A DNA stretch of 32,417 nt from Phycisphaeraceae bacterium (GTDB lineage: Bacteria > Planctomycetota > Phycisphaerae > Phycisphaerales > Phycisphaeraceae). Made by a program: the position numbers and the translations under genes. The notes below the pieces were generated by a model. That model saw only the letters and a list, made by a program, of their open reading frames with translations. It was not told the DNA's origin and searched no databases. The stretch is taken from assembly GCA_029260715.1 (NCBI GenBank), contig JAJDCS010000008.1:123983-156399 (forward strand). The letters are read 5' to 3'. Shown piece by piece: positions 23,275-30,781 of the stretch. The stretch's first letter is position 1. Each line of letters begins with the position of its first letter.

Positions 23275-25692
23275 ATGCTTAAGCCGTTTATTTTCTATCT
23301 GCGCGCAACGGTCGTGGCCAGTTGCGTAATCCCATACGCAGTCTGGCTCTACAACGCTATGCGCAAGGTGTACGGCTTCCACACGCCGTGTGAATGGTCG
23401 GACCTGTGGGTGAAACTCGCCGTAATCGTCGCAATCACAGGCGCGGCAATCACGACGGTCTTGCGTCTCACGAAGTGGTGCGGCCGAAGCATCGACGAGT
23501 TGTCACGCAAGCAAAGCGACTACCTCAAGCAGTTAAACACCAAGAGACTGACCCTGGCTATCTTCGGTTCGGCTGCCATCAGCTTAATCGCCGAATTGGC
23601 CATGATCCGCTGGCAAAGTTCGATCTTCGAGTTGTTCGCGCTGTACAAGAATTTCGGGCTGCTGGCCTGCTTCCTGGGGCTGGGCCTGGGCTACGCGATC
23701 TCCAGCCGCAAGCAGATACCCGTGATGCTGGTCATCCCGCTGCTGACGTGGCAGATTCTATTGCTGTCGCTGACCAAGTACGGCCCGCACAATTGGAACA
23801 TCCAGTTGCTACGAGCCATGCCGGTCACCGAGCAACTGAACATGGGCCTGCACGTCGCGACCAAGGGGTATGAGTACGCGGCAATGTACGGCTTTCTGTC
23901 CGTTGTGTTCATACTGACCGCGTTGACATTTGTACCGATCGGCCAACTCTGCGGCGTTTTGCTGGATCAAAAGCCCCGGCTCCAAGCCTACGGCCTGAAC
24001 CTGCTGGGCAGCCTCGCAGGCGTCGCTGTGTTTTTCGGCTTCAGCCTGCTGTGGACGCCGCCGCTGGTTTGGTTCAGCATCATCTTTATCTGCTTGATCC
24101 TGTTCCAGGCGTTTGACCGGCGCACGCTGCTCACAGGCTCCTGCGCCGCGGCGCTCGCCGTCACTGTGTTGGCGTGGCCGTCTTCTACCTTCTGGGAACA
24201 GATCTACTCGCCCTACCAGTTGCTTGAGCGTGGTTACGGATATGGCGCCGGCGCAAACGTGCGCGCCGCGGGGCATTATTTTCAAGAGATTAGCGTCTTT
24301 GCCAACGTCGACAGGGAACGCATCGCCCGGCTCGATGCCCAACGCGAGCTGCCCTACCGGATCTACGGCCCAGCCGAACGCGTCGCTATCGTCGGCGCCG
24401 GCTCTGGCAACGACGCCGCCGCCGCGATCCGCTGCGACGTCCAGCACGTCGACGCCATCGAGATCGACCCCGCCATCCTTGAGATCGGCAAGTACTACCA
24501 CCCCGAAAAGCCATACTCCAACCCACGGGTCAGCCCGATCGTCAACGACGCGCGGTCTTTCCTACGCAACACCGACGAGAAATACGACATCGTCGTGTAC
24601 GGGCTACTCGATTCGCACGCGCTACTGAGCACCGCCTCAAACGTGCGCGTCGATTCCTTTGTCTACACCGTCGAGGGGCTGCGCGAGTCCCGTGCCCGCC
24701 TCAAAGAAGGCGGCATGATCAGCCTCGCATTCTGCGTCATGTCACCGGAAATCGGCAGAAAACTGTACCTGATGCTCCAAGAAGCCTTCGACGGCCAAGC
24801 GCCGCTGTGCATCCAGCGACAAAACAACTCCGCGGTGGTCTTCCTGATCCGTGAGGGCATGCCCATCGAGATCAATGACAATCTCTTCGCCATGGGATCG
24901 CTCAATGACGTGACCGCTAAGTTCGCCGACCCAACAATCAAAGTGGACCTGTCCACCGACGATTGGCCGTTCTTCTACATGCCCAAACGCGTCTACCCGG
25001 TCTCATACGTCATCGTGGTGGGCATTATCCTCGCGCTGTCGCTGGTGTTCGTGCGGCCGTTCTTCAAAGCCGACTCGAACGCAACGCCCAAACGCTTCCA
25101 GATCAACCACGCCGTCTTCTTCCTGCTCGGCGCCGGGTTTATGCTGGTAGAAACCAAGTCCATTACCGAGCTTGGGCTTACCTTCGGCAACACCTGGCAC
25201 GTCATCGGCATCGTCATCGCGGGCATCCTGACCATGGCCTTCATCGCCAACCTGGTCGTGTACCGCCTGCGCATCCGTGGCCTGGCCATACCGTTCACGC
25301 TGCTGCTGGGCAGCCTCGCCGCGGGGTTGCTCGTGGCCAAGTCAGGCGGCTTCAGCTCCACCTTCGCCGGAAGGATCGCCACGCTGGCCGTGCTCACCAG
25401 TCCCATGTTCTTCAGCGGTATCTGCTTCTCAACCATGCTCCGGTACACCACGGACATGTCATCCGCGATGGCCGCCAACCTCATCGGTGCCATGGCGGGC
25501 GGACTGCTGGAATACAACTCCATGTACTTCGGGTTCCAGTGGCTTTACTGGCTGGCGTTAGGGGTCTACGGAACGGCCATGGTCTTCTCGTGGTTCGGCT
25601 GCAGGCCCGCAGCGCTTGAACAACACACCCAAGCAATACAAGACGCGGCGGCGAATCGCGGCATCACAAGCAGCCTCAAACACGCCGCGTAA
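23275..25692 (+). CDS. Polytopic membrane protein with spermidine synthase-like domain
   Basis: The protein has 805 residues. The N-terminal 300 residues hold several transmembrane segments (for example LTLAIFGSAAISLIAELAMI, FGLLACFLGLGLGYA, GFLSVVFILTALTFVP). Residues about 350-560 form a Rossmann methyltransferase/spermidine-synthase core: VAIVGAGSGNDAAAA (373-387), AIEIDPAILEIGKYY, IVNDARSFL, and YDIVVYGLLDSH. The C-terminal part (about 575-790) is again membrane-spanning. The dcSAM/SAM glycine loop and the acidic EID are present. The residues that make SpeE an aminopropyltransferase cannot be confirmed, so the substrate is unknown. The architecture is known among large membrane 'spermidine synthase-like' proteins of several phyla. 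It converges on the TerL-like gene. Confidence 0.85.
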   Translation: MLKPFIFYLRATVVASCVIPYAVWLYNAMRKVYGFHTPCEWSDLWVKLAVIVAITGAAITTVLRLTKWCGRSIDELSRKQSDYLKQLNTKRLTLAIFGSAAISLIAELAMIRWQSSIFELFALYKNFGLLACFLGLGLGYAISSRKQIPVMLVIPLLTWQILLLSLTKYGPHNWNIQLLRAMPVTEQLNMGLHVATKGYEYAAMYGFLSVVFILTALTFVPIGQLCGVLLDQKPRLQAYGLNLLGSLAGVAVFFGFSLLWTPPLVWFSIIFICLILFQAFDRRTLLTGSCAAALAVTVLAWPSSTFWEQIYSPYQLLERGYGYGAGANVRAAGHYFQEISVFANVDRERIARLDAQRELPYRIYGPAERVAIVGAGSGNDAAAAIRCDVQHVDAIEIDPAILEIGKYYHPEKPYSNPRVSPIVNDARSFLRNTDEKYDIVVYGLLDSHALLSTASNVRVDSFVYTVEGLRESRARLKEGGMISLAFCVMSPEIGRKLYLMLQEAFDGQAPLCIQRQNNSAVVFLIREGMPIEINDNLFAMGSLNDVTAKFADPTIKVDLSTDDWPFFYMPKRVYPVSYVIVVGIILALSLVFVRPFFKADSNATPKRFQINHAVFFLLGAGFMLVETKSITELGLTFGNTWHVIGIVIAGILTMAFIANLVVYRLRIRGLAIPFTLLLGSLAAGLLVAKSGGFSSTFAGRIATLAVLTSPMFFSGICFSTMLRYTTDMSSAMAANLIGAMAGGLLEYNSMYFGFQWLYWLALGVYGTAMVFSWFGCRPAALEQHTQAIQDAAANRGITSSLKHAA

Positions 25693-25744: not shown

Positions 25745-27307
25745 CTAATACCTCCGCGTGATCACAGGCCGACTGCCCAGGTCCAAGCTCACGATCATGT
25801 AACGCAGCGCGTCGCACAAATGATCAGGGCCGTCTTTAACAGGGTCGTCCCGCTCCGGATTTGCCGCGTCGAAGTGGTATGTGGCCAGCGCCTCGATCAG
25901 CCGCTCACAATTCGGGCTGATTACAAGCGTGCCGTGGTCCAGCCTCCGCCGGACACACTCGATACCATCTCGCACACCCGCGCGCACCACACGCACCGCA
26001 TACCCCCGCCGCCGCAACACCTGCACATCGCTCAACCCCGTCTGCGAATTCCGACTCGCCCCAGCCGGATCAACCCCGACCCACACCGGCTCGGGCAACC
26101 CCGCCGACCCGATCGCATCAAGGTGCTGATCAAGCGGGATGTCGTGCTCTTGATACTCACCAAATACCTCGACCACACCGCCCCCAGAAACACACGGAGA
26201 CTGCCGACCCGGCAATCGCCCCTCTTCCGGGGGCAAGGGCCGCACCCTCGCCCACAGCATCACCAGCGGGCTACGCAACCCAAAGTCCATCCCACCGATC
26301 ACCACGCCATCTCGAATGGAAGCCCCACCCGCCTCAGCATGATCAACCGCCACCGGCACCGCGGCCACATGCCTCCCCCCTCGAGCCGAGTCAAAGCTCG
26401 GGTACACGCTGTCGCTGCGACGCGGCTGCTTGCACATCATCTCACTGGCCCACGCATCGCCGCTGCTGCGGTGCCACTGCGTCACCAAATCGTCCACAGC
26501 CACAAACCCCTCCGCCCGCTTAGCGCGTCCCTGGCAGTCATCCCACAACACACACACGCCGCAGTCCCGATCCGACGGGCAACGCTCGATCACGTCCAAC
26601 GCGCACCACCGAAACAACCGCCGCCGCTGTTTTTCGCCCGACAGGACTTTGCCCACCAACCGGCTCATCACCCCAAACGGCCGGTGCATCGTCGACATCG
26701 CCTCGACCGTGCCCCGCACATGTACACCCCCGCACACGCCCGATTGCGTCACGAGCTGTGCCGCCTCCCAGATATCAGGCTTAAACTCCTCAACCTCGTC
26801 GCAGCGCATCTTGTGTACTCGCTGGCCACGCACCGACTGCTGCGATTGGCTAAGCACCTCCACACGGCTGCCGTTGACCAGCTCGATCACCCGCTGCGTC
26901 GGCCGCCCCGCGACCACACCCCGCAGCAGCGGCCGCTCCACCATCCGCCGCAGATACCGATACATCTTGCTCGACTGCTCGAAACTGCCACCCAGAATCC
27001 GCACCTGGACCCCCGGCTTAAAAAGCAAATCCAGCAGCGTCGCCACCGCTCCAAGATAGGTCTTCCCGCCCCCACGGCTGGCCCAGACCACCGCATCGGA
27101 GATGGGCGAGTCGGACAGCTCATCTCCCACACCCTCAAAAAAACTATGACAGAGGTATTCGAACGGGGCGCTATGCCCCTCAAGCATCGCTCGCCGGGGC
27201 ACGCAAACACCCAACACCGCTTCAATAAACCGGTGAAGCTCTTGGGCTGTCTGTGGCCGAAGCGACTCGATCTCTCGCATCCGCTCCAAGGGGATCGTCA
27301 CAACCAA
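25745..27307 (-). CDS. TerL-like packaging ATPase/nuclease with four-cysteine insert
   Basis: The protein has 520 residues from a TTG at 27307, which has AGGAGG 7 nt ahead. A GTG at 27301, overlapping the upstream stop as GTGA, is the alternative start. The ATPase half has a Walker A-like ASRGGGKT (76-83) and Walker B MRCDEVEEF (Asp170/Glu171). The nuclease half has an RNase H-like acidic set: GGMDFGLRSP (Asp341), GVDPAGASRN (Asp413), and GPDHLCDALRYM (Asp495/Asp499). Between them sits Cys243-X5-Cys-X2-Cys-X5-Cys258, a likely Zn or Fe-S site. The family is phage terminase large subunit, but no portal, capsid or other virion gene is near. It is last in a six-gene cassette with ABC, GNAT and ParB-like genes. 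An active DNA translocase/nuclease is inferred. Confidence 0.82.
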   Translation of the reverse strand: MVVTIPLERMREIESLRPQTAQELHRFIEAVLGVCVPRRAMLEGHSAPFEYLCHSFFEGVGDELSDSPISDAVVWASRGGGKTYLGAVATLLDLLFKPGVQVRILGGSFEQSSKMYRYLRRMVERPLLRGVVAGRPTQRVIELVNGSRVEVLSQSQQSVRGQRVHKMRCDEVEEFKPDIWEAAQLVTQSGVCGGVHVRGTVEAMSTMHRPFGVMSRLVGKVLSGEKQRRRLFRWCALDVIERCPSDRDCGVCVLWDDCQGRAKRAEGFVAVDDLVTQWHRSSGDAWASEMMCKQPRRSDSVYPSFDSARGGRHVAAVPVAVDHAEAGGASIRDGVVIGGMDFGLRSPLVMLWARVRPLPPEEGRLPGRQSPCVSGGGVVEVFGEYQEHDIPLDQHLDAIGSAGLPEPVWVGVDPAGASRNSQTGLSDVQVLRRRGYAVRVVRAGVRDGIECVRRRLDHGTLVISPNCERLIEALATYHFDAANPERDDPVKDGPDHLCDALRYMIVSLDLGSRPVITRRY

Positions 27308-27801
27308 AACTCGTCCTCCTCGCCCAGGGCCCGCTCTTCGCTTGAATCCGTTTCCGGGGTATCGCGGATCTCGCCCACTGCTTTGTAAAGCAACTGCCTC
27401 AGCGATTCCGGTTGAACCTTATTAGCTTCGTCAGAATCTGCGGGCATTGCTTTGCTCACCGCCGCCGGCTCCGCTGGCTTCAAGTCCATTTTCAATAAGT
27501 CCACGCACGCCCGTCGTGCCACGTCGCGCGACTTCTCATCGCTGCTCTCTTCCGTGGCCAGCCGCACCAACCGCCCCGCGGCCAATCGCCGGTACCGACA
27601 CAGCAACAACCGCGTTTGGTAATCCGCAAGCAGGCAAAGACCATTGAGCACCCGCTGGTGCTCCTGTTCTTCAACCCAACCCGCTAATTCCTCGGGGCTC
27701 ATACCCAGGCTCTCCCCCAGAGACACCGGGTCGTGCTGGGCGGAGATCACCTCTTGAATCAGCCGCCGACTCTTTTCTTTGCTGGATTGTTTATCCACCA
27801 T
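27298..27801 (-). CDS. Small HTH-like protein, possible TerS-like partner
   Basis: The protein has 167 residues. The N-terminal part contains an HTH-like stretch, LGESLGMSPEELAGWVEEQE. A long amphipathic helical region follows (VLNGLCLLADYQTRLLLCRY, RRLAAGRLVRLATE, RRACVDLLKMDL). The C-terminal third is acidic and probably disordered, ending EEDEFWL. Small terminase subunits also combine an HTH with helical oligomerisation segments, and this gene overlaps the TerL-like gene by 10 nt, so a TerS role is plausible. No family can be named with confidence from the sequence. It starts 53 nt after the ParB-like gene. The SD is weak. Confidence 0.6.
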   Translation of the reverse strand: MVDKQSSKEKSRRLIQEVISAQHDPVSLGESLGMSPEELAGWVEEQEHQRVLNGLCLLADYQTRLLLCRYRRLAAGRLVRLATEESSDEKSRDVARRACVDLLKMDLKPAEPAAVSKAMPADSDEANKVQPESLRQLLYKAVGEIRDTPETDSSEERALGEEDEFWL

Positions 27802-27853
27802 TAATACATTTCTCTACAACAGGCCAACCGATCGGCTTACACCATCAACCCAT

Positions 27854-28450
27854 CTAATCTTGACCCTCAACCATCCGCATCAGCGCCCGCTCTCGCGTCC
27901 CGCCCATCGCCCGCAACCGCGATTCGAGTTGCCGCCGCTGCTTAGGCAGCAGAAAGAAATGCACCGCCTCAGGCATCTCATCCAACACCACAGCCCCCCG
28001 CGGCTGCGGCGGCGGCTCCGTCAGCGACAGCAGCTTATCGATCGCTTCCCTGTCCTCCGGCAGCAGCTTGACCAACTCCGCCACGTCAAAGCGGCTGTTC
28101 AGTTCCGCCACCAACGACGAACGCCTCACCGCGTCGTCGTGCCCGCTCAACCGGTTGAGCGTCCCCAGCAACAACAACGCCTCACCCTCATCCACTCTCC
28201 ATACCACGCACTGGGCTTCAGCCTCGCCAAGCTCTTCCAACGCGCGCACCCGGTGATGCCCATCAAGAATCTCATACCCCTCACCTCCGCCATCACCAAT
28301 CGGCCGCACAATAATCGGTGGGTACCTGCCGCTCCGCCTGATGTGCCCCACCAGTTTGCGGTACAGCGCCTTGGGCATCACATTGCTGTTCGCCGGGTGC
28401 CCACGGAGCAACCACAACTGGATTGTTTGAACGCCTGTCTCGTTATTCAC
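27854..28450 (-). CDS. ParB/Srx-fold protein
   Basis: The protein has 198 residues and starts with GTG overlapping the GNAT stop codon (GTGA, 28447-28450). The ParB/sulfiredoxin-type N-terminal domain is visible: LVGHIRRSGRYPPIIVRPI, then GYEILDGHHRVRALEELGE. DGHHR (63-67) takes the place of the GERRxRA box of chromosomal ParB. This DGHHR variant is typical of stand-alone ParB-like proteins of mobile DNA. The C-terminal half is helical (DDAVRRSSLVAELN, PKQRRQLESRLRAM). It may act as an NTP-dependent DNA-binding clamp or nuclease; neither is shown. No parS consensus was found nearby. Confidence 0.8.
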   Translation of the reverse strand: MNNETGVQTIQLWLLRGHPANSNVMPKALYRKLVGHIRRSGRYPPIIVRPIGDGGGEGYEILDGHHRVRALEELGEAEAQCVVWRVDEGEALLLLGTLNRLSGHDDAVRRSSLVAELNSRFDVAELVKLLPEDREAIDKLLSLTEPPPQPRGAVVLDEMPEAVHFFLLPKQRRQLESRLRAMGGTRERALMRMVEGQD

Positions 28451-29301
28451 GCCTTAACACTCGATTTGGTATCCACGCCCAACTCGCCCCGGTTATCCTT
28501 CAAGTAATACACCGGCTCACACACCAACCGCCCCTGCGCCGCGAGCAACAGATCATAATGCCCAACATTTTTTTGAACCGCCCACCCCAGCGTCTTCTTG
28601 TGCCACGCGCCCAGTTCCCTTAACAACCACGCTTTTTGTGTAACCGGCAATCCCGCAATCCGCCGGCACACACCGCGCAGCGCCGCCAAATCGTCAGGCT
28701 CAACCCCCGCCGCTCCCAATGCCGCGATTAGCCTCGCGTCGTGTTCGTGGCGGTGTCGCCGGTAAGCCGTCATCCCAGCACGCTCAAAAAACGGGTGAAC
28801 CCGCCCCATCGCCGCCATCGCTTCCGTATAAACCGTCGCCGCCGCCGCCAGCGTCGCCCCCACCAGCCGTACCGCAACGCCCAGCCCCCGCCACTGCGGG
28901 TGGACCACCACCCTGCTGATACACCGCACCTCTCGGTTCACTAGCGTTGCCCGCTGCCGACGGTCTTGCACACCCCCATACCGCCCGCCCAACGCCCAAT
29001 CACGCATACGACAACCAAGCACCGGCATCGACTCCACCAACACACCCACAACTCGCTCACCACTCGTACGCCCCATAAACCGATCACTAACCCCCTCCAC
29101 AAAATGCTTGGCAACAAAAACGCGGCTAACCGTCGCCGGGGCAGACCCTTTGTAGTGGTACTCCGCAAGCCCCAAGTAATCCCCCCAATCCCCCTGCTCG
29201 ACGGTCAAACGGCCTTCAACAGCCTCCGCAGGCAGCCGCGCAAAACGCTCCCGCAATTCATCGCCACACTGTCGCTCACACTCGCCCAAGCTACTCGCCA
29301 C
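28447..29301 (-). CDS. GNAT-fold acetyltransferase-like protein (COG2401-type)
   Basis: The protein has 284 residues. The GTG start follows directly after the ABC gene's TAA. The GNAT core is near the middle: CISRVVVHPQWRGLGVAVRLV (127-147), which has the Q-x-R-G-x-G acetyl-CoA loop, then MGRVHPFFERAGMTAYRRHR. The N-terminal 120 residues hold short strands (RVFVAKHF, RVVGVLVESMPVL). The C-terminal 100 residues are helical (LPVTQKAWLLRELGAWHKKTL). Such domains occur fused to an ABC ATPase in COG2401 ('ABC-type ATPase fused to a predicted acetyltransferase domain'); here they are two adjacent genes. The Mom DNA-modifying enzyme of phage Mu is also a GNAT fold, so DNA-base modification is one hypothesis. 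The substrate is unknown. Confidence 0.75.
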   Translation of the reverse strand: MASSLGECERQCGDELRERFARLPAEAVEGRLTVEQGDWGDYLGLAEYHYKGSAPATVSRVFVAKHFVEGVSDRFMGRTSGERVVGVLVESMPVLGCRMRDWALGGRYGGVQDRRQRATLVNREVRCISRVVVHPQWRGLGVAVRLVGATLAAAATVYTEAMAAMGRVHPFFERAGMTAYRRHRHEHDARLIAALGAAGVEPDDLAALRGVCRRIAGLPVTQKAWLLRELGAWHKKTLGWAVQKNVGHYDLLLAAQGRLVCEPVYYLKDNRGELGVDTKSSVKA

Positions 29302-30003
29302 TTACCGTCCCTGCCTCTCGTCCCCCCGCCTCATCACCTCGATCCGCTCACCCAGGTCTTTCACCACCAACACATCGGGCTCCAACGGCTCAAGCAAATC
29401 GTCGTGCGCCGTGGCCGCCACGAAGCACACGCCCCCGTCTCGCCGCGTCCATTTCCGAACATTTCGCGCGATCACCTTGGCCGTCACCCGGTCTAAAACG
29501 GAGCAGAACTCATCAGCCAACACCACACAAAGCCCGTCGCCTTTCACGCCCCGCACCTCGGCCATCGCTTGCGCCAAGCGCAACCGGTACCGCTGCCCAT
29601 CCGAAAGCTCGCTAGGCCGACGCAGCATCACAAACGCATCGCTCAAACCCGCCAAGCTCAACACCCTCAACGCACCCTCCAACCCCTCATCCCCCACAAG
29701 CTCCGCCAACGAATCCACCAGCGGCCGCCGCCCCAACGCCGCCAGCCCGTCAAATCGCACCACCCTGACCCCTTCTTGCCCCTCAAGCCCTCCTTCAATC
29801 AGCCGCAGTATCACGCTCTTGCCGCCACCGCTGGGACCGGTCACAAAAACGATCTGACCCGCCTCAATGTCAACCGACACACGCGGAACAATCACCGCCT
29901 CGCGTTGCTCGTCGACACCTAAACCAAACATCGCCGCCACGCGCAACACGCACGGCGACGGCTCAACCCTCGTCTTAACAGACCGCTCAAGTTCTAAACG
30001 CAT
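29302..30003 (-). CDS. Soluble ABC-type ATPase (COG2401-type)
   Basis: The protein has 233 residues with no membrane segment. All ABC motifs are visible: Walker A GPSGGGKS (56-63), signature ELSDGQRYRLRLAQ (the usual LSGGQ is LSDGQ at 133-137), Walker B CVVLADEF (159-166), and H-loop ATAHDD (His200). The two motor halves are therefore intact, and it probably acts as a dimer. It lies 58 nt after the tandem-HTH gene and its TAA is followed directly by the GNAT gene's GTG, which argues for a linked product. No permease gene is near, so transport is unlikely; a DNA-associated or regulatory ATPase is more plausible. Confidence 0.82.
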   Translation of the reverse strand: MRLELERSVKTRVEPSPCVLRVAAMFGLGVDEQREAVIVPRVSVDIEAGQIVFVTGPSGGGKSVILRLIEGGLEGQEGVRVVRFDGLAALGRRPLVDSLAELVGDEGLEGALRVLSLAGLSDAFVMLRRPSELSDGQRYRLRLAQAMAEVRGVKGDGLCVVLADEFCSVLDRVTAKVIARNVRKWTRRDGGVCFVAATAHDDLLEPLEPDVLVVKDLGERIEVMRRGDERQGR

Positions 30004-30061
30004 GAAACCAGCCGCCCTTCACCGACCCGCACGAGACGAACCCACCACACCGCAACACGGT

Positions 30062-30535
30062 TTAGACCAAAGACGATTTTTGGGAGGGGTTGACCTTCAC
30101 CGTTTTCTGCATAAGCACCGCAGCGCTGATGTCCGTTAAAGACTCCAGCGTCCGCAGGTGCTGACGCACCTGGTACAGGCTCACCCTGCTGAGCCTCGCC
30201 GCCCGACGCAGGCTGTGACCCTGCAACACGACAAGCTCCACGGTCTTGCGGATCGACACCGGCAGCAACTCCCAATGACCAAGCACAAACACGAATCTGT
30301 CAGAATCCATCCGCTTAAGAAGCTTCGTGATCCGCCGCTGAACCTTGCGTGGGTCGTCACCGCTTATGCACGCCGCGTCTGTGATGCTCATGCCGTTCCG
30401 GTAGACCTGCTCAATCAAGAGCCGGTCTGTTTTTTCCAGGTGCGCCGCGCGCTCCAGCAGACGCTCAGCGTAGTCGCGCTGAAGCATGCGGCGGTTCGAT
30501 GAAGACGACGATTCAAACTCGAACGATTGGGTCAT
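30062..30535 (-). CDS. Tandem HTH protein resembling sigma region 4
   Basis: The protein has 157 residues from the ATG at 30535. A GTG at 30568 would add 11 residues. Two HTH segments of the sigma70 region 4 type are visible. The first is at about 35-77 (LEKTDRLLIEQVYRNGMSIT, then DDPRKVQRRITKLLKR). The second is at about 90-133 (LPVSIRKTVELVVLQGHSLR, then RVSLYQVRQHLRTL). A serine-rich N-terminus and a short C-terminal tail flank them. Without a region 2 it cannot be a full sigma factor; it is probably a DNA-binding regulator or DNA-recognition subunit. It is the first gene of the cassette. It is a natural candidate to bind the 26-bp palindrome about 220 nt upstream. Confidence 0.7.
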   Translation of the reverse strand: MTQSFEFESSSSSNRRMLQRDYAERLLERAAHLEKTDRLLIEQVYRNGMSITDAACISGDDPRKVQRRITKLLKRMDSDRFVFVLGHWELLPVSIRKTVELVVLQGHSLRRAARLSRVSLYQVRQHLRTLESLTDISAAVLMQKTVKVNPSQKSSLV

Positions 30536-30755
30536 TACACGCAGGCCCGAAATCCGGCAACGGCCCACCCCCGGACAAAGCCCAAGCCCCCTGCCAAGGT
30601 CCGCTTAGGCCACGACGATCAAACGTGACATGCTGTGTTGGATGCTCATAAACCGGCGCCCGATAATCCCCACGCGTCTTTTTGTCGCCGGCTGTCCGCC
30701 CCAACACCTCCTCAACATGGCTGTTACACACGCCCCCCTACTATTCGTCTCGACC

Positions 30756-30781
30756 GTCGCATTTGTGCGCACAAATGCGAC
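30756..30781. repeat. Perfect 26-bp palindrome upstream of the cassette
   Basis: The left arm is GTCGCATTTGTGC and the right arm is its exact reverse complement, with no spacer. Pairing fails one base further out. It is adjacent to the AT-rich patch that probably holds the cassette promoter. It could be an operator for a dimeric regulator, or a recognition site for the ParB-like or TerL-like protein. It does not match parS or the usual LexA boxes. Confidence 0.85.

Follow-up and report, generated by a model that had tools for sequence, protein, structure and literature searches.

The window analysed here, 32,417 nucleotides of a Phycisphaeraceae bacterium (assembly GCA_029260715.1, contig JAJDCS010000008.1), carries six intact open reading frames (ORFs) on the minus strand between positions 25745 and 30535, none of which contains an internal stop. 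In order of transcription they encode a tandem helix-turn-helix (HTH) protein, an ABC-type ATPase, a GNAT acyltransferase, a ParB-like protein, a small protein termed S, and a TerL-like large terminase. The window forms the final 32 kb of contig C42 and terminates where the contig terminates; the genome (G000) comprises 3.32 Mb in 44 contigs and is 96.5% complete. The features of the locus are:

25745-27307, minus strand: TerL-like large terminase, 520 amino acids (aa), with ATPase, four-cysteine linker and RNase H-like nuclease (PF03237, phrog_2)
27298-27801, minus strand: small protein S at the position of a small terminase, with a predicted HTH at the N terminus and a long helical hairpin (AlphaFold2)
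27854-28450, minus strand: ParB-like protein, 198 aa (PF02195, phrog_723, alignment of 19 sequences)
28447-29301, minus strand: GNAT acyltransferase, 284 aa (phrog_886, AlphaFold2, Foldseek)
29302-30003, minus strand: ABC-type ATPase, 233 aa, partner of the GNAT protein (PF00005, phrog_293)
30062-30535, minus strand: tandem HTH protein encoded by the leading gene of the operon, with a sigma-70 region-4-like match (PF08281)
30756-30781, no strand: GTCGCATTTGTGCGCACAAATGCGAC, a perfect palindrome of 26 bp that precedes the operon

The six ORFs had been listed by an earlier, sequence-only reading of the window, and its family assignments were upheld for all of them except S. Its description of the genes as packed holds for three of the five junctions (ABC/GNAT direct, GNAT/ParB and S/TerL overlapping), whereas 58 bp separate the HTH and ABC genes and 52 bp the ParB and S genes. 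The HTH gene has an ATG start at 30535, and an upstream GTG would start at 30568. The G+C content at third codon positions is 0.68-0.76 in the six genes versus 0.67-0.85 in seven other genes of the window.

TerL matches Terminase_6N (PF03237, 4.8e-6), phrog_2 (6.8e-13) and several other PHROG TerL families. The residues that we take to be the Walker A lysine, the Walker B motif, the coupling motif and the nuclease aspartates are invariant or nearly so across 101 TerL sequences of the class Phycisphaerae, in line with the earlier statement that the protein keeps both its ATPase and its nuclease residues. Four cysteines in the linker are present in all 101 sequences; they lie at residues 243-258, between the ATPase and the nuclease domain, and are perhaps a metal site. 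Cyanovirin matches to the TerL profile were regarded as spurious. On the viral contigs L053-L076 most TerL homologues match the ATPase half alone (about 310-340 aa), and on those inspected a small ORF upstream of TerL resembles the nuclease half, possibly a split terminase. On another viral-classed contig (L080, 1-2400) GNAT and TerL are curtailed next to genes of lower GC3, perhaps an element that has inserted into a cassette.

The ParB-like protein matches ParB_N (PF02195) at 1.4e-5, just under the cut-off, and phrog_723 at 7.8e-12, and its DGHHR motif is invariant in the alignment of 19. The ABC protein matches ABC_tran (PF00005, 1.5e-10) and phrog_293 (1.4e-30), the HTH protein a Sigma70_r4-like family (PF08281, 1.9e-4), and the GNAT protein the Pfam GNAT family (5e-4) and phrog_886 (1e-10). 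The AlphaFold2 model of the latter (pLDDT 90.5) has TmcA as its top Foldseek match, followed by NAT10 and Mu Mom; Mom superposes with a Z score of 12.2 over 142 residues at 3.2 A. The operon GNAT thus has the predicted fold of these enzymes, which hold the top Foldseek ranks, whereas sequence identity is only about 13-15% and generic GNATs equal them in Z. S has no match to a PDB sequence and no significant one to a family, its best E values being 0.24 in Pfam and 0.043 in PHROG. Its AlphaFold2 model (pLDDT 77.8) yields weak fold matches to the small terminases (TerS) of phBC6A51, Sf6 and PaP3, with Foldseek E of at least 0.67 or Z scores of 5.4-5.6.

The flanking ORFs that were scanned are housekeeping-like, as had been noted earlier: mqnD, a spermine-synthase-like gene, a GARS/PurD-like gene, and genes for UvrD, an aminotransferase, GAPDH, QPRTase and a biotin/lipoate ligase. 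Between mqnD and TerL (23275-25692) lies a gene for an 805-aa membrane protein with a spermine-synthase domain, which was not found in the fetched regions of 20 relatives.

Distribution and inheritance of the cassette

TerL matches were found in 30 of 51 genomes of the window's family and in 124 of 248 genomes of its class (100 of the 194 of good quality), nearly always in single copy. In a sample of the phylum, 20 of 294 genomes contained TerL; all belong to the class Phycisphaerae, and the sampled genomes beyond the class yielded no TerL relatives. Twenty family regions were fetched, and the 18 untruncated ones all contain the six genes, in identical order in 16; in the other two (L043, L048) the GNAT gene sits upstream of the HTH gene. 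Among 20 regions fetched from the class, 16 extend at least 8.9 kb upstream of TerL; HTH, ABC and GNAT genes are recognised in 14 of these, ParB and S in fewer, the models having been built from the window's family, so that distant members may escape. A scan of genome contigs yielded 166 TerL relatives, of which the best 80 were kept, which biases the counts to closer relatives. In 56 of these loci the sequence extends 6 kb or more upstream of TerL; all 56 have the HTH, ABC, GNAT and TerL genes, 40 have ParB and 21 have S, and ABC and GNAT are fused into one reading frame in 23. The titles of the best 80 of the 166 records name Planctomycetota or its subgroups, barring one plain "bacterium" and one Cyanobacteria; the latter (L242), which bears the cassette, is probably mislabelled or reclassified.

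Damage exists and is not the rule, contrary to the possibility, raised with the sequence-only reading, that the genes are found only here and broken in relatives. Among the 20 family loci TerL contains a stop in G045 and the ParB frame is split in G029, and an inside stop is listed for TerL in only 4 of 124 class genomes (G045, G121, G139, G174). For TerL, all 12 close pairs of relatives tested have a ratio of nonsynonymous to synonymous substitutions (dN/dS) of 0.08-0.25; for S and ParB the ratio reaches 0.57 and 0.56, respectively.

Pairwise distances of TerL and LexA in 16 genomes correlate with r 0.59 (Mantel test, 0 of 2000 permutations); the correlation is weaker for ParB and LexA (r 0.34, 7 of 2000). 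A TerL tree with 57 rows places the 10 rows of the window's family in a single supported clade and all 15 rows known to be from the window's order inside one supported clade of 24, the remaining nine rows of which have no stated order; two f17 rows pair. In the best tree the class is not monophyletic, since five TerLs from viral contigs are placed among its deep branches. In 11 of 21 loci, mqnD flanks the TerL end of the cassette at a distance of no more than 4.5 kb. These comparisons of gene-tree clades, distances and synteny lend support to a mostly vertical inheritance of the cassette. The class-wide presence, nearly always in single copy, the purifying selection, the partial synteny and the host-like signal in the TerL tree support domestication well.

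The head operon

The absence of virion genes had been part of the earlier description. Inside the 32 kb it stands, in that none was recognised among the virion families searched, which were only some of those known. Elsewhere in the genomes the picture is different: a portal of the SPP1 type (PF05133) has one match in 18 of 20 genomes with the cassette, and an SU10-type capsid co-occurs with TerL class-wide. The portal lies roughly 20-65 kb from TerL on a shared contig in 12 genomes, much farther away in three (G104, G068, G111) and on a different contig in three (G000, G009, G029).

The 18 portal loci share a conserved cluster comprising the portal gene (18), a scaffold-like gene (17), a capsid gene (16) and a gene termed v6 (14), followed by tail-like genes in fewer of them. 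The families of the cluster were named from a single locus (L331), where the capsid matches SU10_MCP (PF17236, 5.9e-87) and the scaffold and tail-collar matches are weak (E 0.0004-0.003). In four relatives followed downstream (G020, G024, G037, G038) the recognisable genes finish by about 11 kb; a short shared lipoprotein-looking gene comes next, and then phosphoglucomutase and HAD genes in G037 and, by similarity, in G038 and G024. A GAF-sigma54 activator gene runs divergently to the portal gene at 12 of the 18 loci (L324-L334, L340) and is either a regulator or a mere neighbour. The same head cluster is present on L392, which IMG/VR classes as a viral contig, and elements of this kind may be counted as viruses in that database. 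PF04860, phrog_145, PF05136 and PF05065 were rejected as portal or capsid of the element, as they were scattered like ordinary prophages or absent from G000; a search of the whole G000 genome with these four and with the capsid profile gave no match.

A profile of the major capsid protein (MCP), built from five sequences (A9), matches 107 of 248 class genomes. Both TerL and capsid are present in 100 genomes, TerL only in 24, capsid only in 7 and neither in 117 (Fisher p 1.8e-36, uncorrected for phylogeny). The two genes are on one contig in 38 of the 100 genomes, at a median distance of 30.7 kb. A check for capsid genes nearby had been suggested earlier: MCP lies within 20 kb of TerL in 16 of the 38 genomes and within 100 kb in 33. 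In four genomes (G059, G108, G110, G117) cassette genes, portal and capsid form one stretch of at most 20 kb, and a fifth (G069) also has a joint stretch, though the cassette part on its contig consists of GNAT and TerL alone. In G059 the genes for HTH, ABC, GNAT, TerL, portal, scaffold-like protein, capsid, v6, v17 and v12 follow one another on one strand behind a divergent repressor gene, with gaps of up to about 1.5 kb and with ParB and S unrecognised; in G117 the head genes precede the cassette genes.

The distances of portal and TerL correlate with r 0.81 (n=16; r 0.56 within the family), those of MCP and TerL with r 0.55 (0.34 within the family, 28 of 2000 permutations). The dN/dS of MCP is 0.09-0.14 in four of five pairs. 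Judged by dN/dS, almost every pair tested shows purifying selection on TerL, portal and capsid.

The operon is not a free-standing capsid-less module, a reading that was overturned by the PF05133 portal matches. A related alternative is a capsid-free chromosomal system for defence or modification, in which GNAT and ABC would mark host DNA, ParB and the terminase would locate unmarked DNA and cut it, and a damage-sensing repressor would control the genes. The resemblance of GNAT to the nucleobase acyltransferases TmcA, NAT10 and Mom would fit such a system, and the 24 of 124 TerL-positive genomes in which no matching capsid gene was found would be explained by it. Acylation of a DNA base has moreover been predicted for an ABC and GNAT pair (PMC7824862). 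In a PADLOC scan ABC matched MADS ATPases (mad3 2.8e-10, mad8 9e-7), LmuB and others, and ParB matched type II methyltransferases (6e-4). These ABC matches are at the level of the ATPase, however, and the scan gave no match for TerL, S, GNAT and HTH. Together with the capsid co-occurrence, the portal and capsid genes nearby in several families and the correlated portal and TerL distances across separate loci, this renders the defence system very unlikely.

Putative control of the two operons

An HTH_3 and Peptidase_S24 protein is encoded divergently upstream of the cassette; its gene is present at 15 of 18 loci of the family, in 8 of 16 regions of the class and at 49 of 56 contig loci. At L034 this repressor matches PF01381, PF00717 and phrog_4 (1.8e-28), and its nearest relatives are phage repressors. 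Three motifs, A-G, G.SM.P and TFKR, presumably the cleavage site and the Ser-Lys catalytic residues, are invariant in 13 of 13 family members. LexA is encoded separately in 16 of 16 cassette genomes checked; of the few known LexA-box motifs tried, none was found upstream of lexA in 17 loci.

Between the S24 and HTH genes, the putative operator GTTC-N10-GAAC occurs exactly in 26 of 55 loci (0.1 in shuffles, maximum 1) and with at most one mismatch in 39 (4.2 in shuffles, maximum 7). A second shared S24 operator away from the cassette was looked for and rejected: the exact form GTTCA-N8-TGAAC is confined to the cassette in three of the six genomes examined, and each of the remaining three has one to three further sites, which lie within long frames or at their edges.

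The palindrome upstream of the window's operon is of another kind. Its 14-bp core TTTGTGCGCACAAA has a single match in the window, where 0.12 are expected at up to two mismatches. At least 12 of its 14 positions are matched upstream of 6 of 31 portal genes (0.1 in shuffles), with 14 of 14 in the portal promoter of G029, while the portal promoter of G000 retains just the 10-bp core TGTGCGCACA (10 of 14). Among the HTH promoters such a match is found in 5 of 99 rows; four of these are the window and G029 (12 of 14), each entered under two locus names. The HTH promoters of G043 and G044, both of which have no adjacent S24 gene, score 9. Because the palindrome of the operon promoter recurs at portal promoters, it suggests that the TerL operon and the head operon may share a regulator in the window's lineage.

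A candidate gene transfer agent

These results indicate that the operon is probably one half of a domesticated tailed-phage element of Phycisphaerae, the half responsible for packaging, DNA modification and control, and that the element is most likely a gene transfer agent (GTA). The locus had been read earlier as a domesticated DNA-processing module rather than a prophage remnant; domestication has stood up and gene-transfer-like packaging is the best fit, while stand-alone defence is disfavoured. Structural and packaging homology to tailed phages is found in TerL, the PF05133 portal, the PF17236 capsid and, weakly, the scaffold and tail-collar proteins. Two chromosomal loci are present in many genomes, and co-diversification with the host is indicated by the clades of the TerL tree, the LexA correlation and the mqnD synteny. 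The head is likely too small for the entire gene set, because the loci are tens of kb apart in many genomes. We infer particle formation and the packaging of host DNA from gene content, which suggests that Phycisphaerae may make gene-transfer particles.

Under this proposal, DNA damage or starvation would trigger self-cleavage of the repressor, and the HTH protein would help to turn on both operons. S and ParB would select the DNA, ABC and GNAT would attach an acyl group to a DNA base, and TerL would pump mainly host DNA into heads and cut once they are full. The particles would then deliver the packaged DNA to kin. A wider version, which we regard as slightly short of an even chance, is a class-wide planctomycetotal GTA that was independently domesticated from a phage with an SU10-type capsid, was ancestrally switched by a self-cleaving CI-type repressor, and chemically marks a base of the packaged DNA via the ABC ATPase and GNAT, perhaps against restriction in the recipient.

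Several observations weigh against a GTA. The PF05133 portal is not matched in two of the cassette genomes (G019, G040), 24 of 124 TerL-positive genomes, G000 included, have no capsid match, and 7 have a capsid without TerL. TerL and MCP share a contig in 38 genomes, and in five of these (G082, G095, G104, G068, G111) they are more than 100 kb apart. Two class regions depart from the common gene content: ABC is the sole recognised partner of TerL in L198, and no partner was recognised in the 9 kb upstream of TerL in L197. S resembles TerS only weakly in its predicted fold. The adjacent S24 gene is absent at the window and in G029 (the closest fetched relative), G043 and G044, and the S24 operator, which matches exactly upstream of only 1 of 28 portals, was rejected as a direct link to the head operon. 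One pair of relatives has a dN/dS of 0.54 for MCP and 0.50 for the portal. The capsid matches of 12 genomes contain an in-frame stop, 8 of them still being 383-400 aa long, and in G013 (L330, 11991-19275) the capsid gene is interrupted by a recombinase-like gene, presumably of the serine-recombinase type as judged by eye, and further ORFs. This interruption and an IS3-like ORF at the scaffold position of G000 point to ongoing loss. Temperate phages that bear the gene set are also possible in the class.

The last point leads to the alternative of an ordinary prophage family, active or defective, that is widespread in Phycisphaerae and whose split into two loci reflects decay or rearrangement. 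It would account for the CI-like repressor, the phage-like gene order in G059, the ParB, ABC, GNAT and TerL homologues in phages and the five viral-contig TerLs among deep class branches, and the viral contigs L394, L395 and L397 hold relatives of both TerL and MCP (MCP 38-41% identical). It agrees poorly, however, with the nearly invariable single copy, the recovery of host family and order in the TerL tree, the purifying selection on halves that are tens of kb apart, and the housekeeping neighbours where these were scanned. An integrase or replication gene was not recognised as a conserved neighbour, most neighbour clusters having had no family search. We therefore consider an ordinary prophage family unlikely. 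Homologues in phages with portal and capsid genes had been named earlier as the observation that would count against a domesticated module; half of this was found, namely the five genomes with joint cassette and head genes and distant homologues in three phages. In the latter (Escherichia phage PhiR41_1, Rhizobium phage RHph_X66, Stenotrophomonas phage BUCTxx99) ParB, ABC and GNAT homologues lie upstream of TerL, and annotated portal and major capsid genes follow TerL in RHph_X66 and BUCTxx99. They differ from the element in that ParB is ahead of ABC, that their TerLs fall on a different branch and that they are free phages; BUCTxx99 also has other portal and capsid families (phrog_145, phrog_212).

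The proposed GTA resembles the RcGTA-like Rhodogtaviriformidae, BaGTA and BhGTA, which are also tailed-phage-like chromosomal genes, often at several loci and mostly vertically inherited (PMC9662315). In contrast to them, it belongs to another phylum, has an SU10-type capsid and an SPP1-type portal, includes ABC, GNAT and ParB genes within the packaging operon, and is a predicted packager of host DNA. In Caulobacter, repression of the GTA goes through RogA, which is LexA-like and has HTH and autopeptidase domains, and the GTA helps survival of DNA damage (PMC9632790), and a damage-linked role of the Phycisphaerae element is therefore plausible by analogy. RogA is said to miss key cleavage residues, whereas the S24 repressor retains them. 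The predicted base-modification system likewise couples a GNAT to an ABC ATPase; it is found in jumbo phages, e.g., Tenacibaculum phage pT24, whereas here the pair lies in a bacterial operon with a terminase (PMC7824862). A planctomycete TerL near RcGTA-like TerLs has been discussed in the context of GTA evolution; it belongs to a prophage of Zavarzinella formosa, which is of the class Planctomycetia and is called intact, and which is set apart from our element by this description (PMC7947584). Formally recognised GTAs come mainly from Alphaproteobacteria and Brachyspira, to which gut Bacillota have recently been added; finding further ones is described as difficult owing to their resemblance to defective prophages (PMC12946183).

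No GTA of Planctomycetota was found described in the literature, judged largely by titles and abstract openings, and the Phycisphaerae element is undescribed as far as our searches show. The prediction of base modification by ABC and GNAT pairs reportedly goes back to Iyer 2013. Co-occurrence, split loci, host-like signal, purifying selection and the operator together single out a candidate planctomycetotal GTA. If this is true, it would be a route of gene exchange for Planctomycetota, and a directly testable tie of gene transfer to DNA modification and damage sensing.

The window's own genome has a complete portal gene at the beginning of contig C43, adjoined by the sigma-54 activator gene as in 11 other relatives. 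At the scaffold position a profile-less frame of 28 codons ends, and a transposase-like ORF, which by eye we take to be IS3-like (C43, 1-300; L324), then runs to the contig end. Because an ORF resembling an insertion sequence (IS) replaces the scaffold gene and the capsid profile has no match anywhere in G000, the element may be broken in this strain, and its function there is uncertain. A relic in G000, with no adjacent S24 gene, an IS-interrupted scaffold, a lost capsid and six open genes that idle, is compatible with a GTA in the class, and we consider it a serious though not the favoured possibility. G045, with its TerL stop and no MCP match, would be a parallel. The contig stops at the IS-like ORF, however, so that the far side may be unassembled, all six ORFs and the portal gene are intact, and the operon promoter holds a perfect palindrome of the kind found at portal promoters.

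The element is also present in a cultured strain, ZRK32, whose cassette has no S24 gene next to it. The paper on this strain describes a separate extrachromosomal phage of 21.9 kb, and the words "terminase" and "capsid" are absent from its main text (PMC10945688). The ZRK32 sequence (CP066225, 5,234,020 bases) carries both operons.

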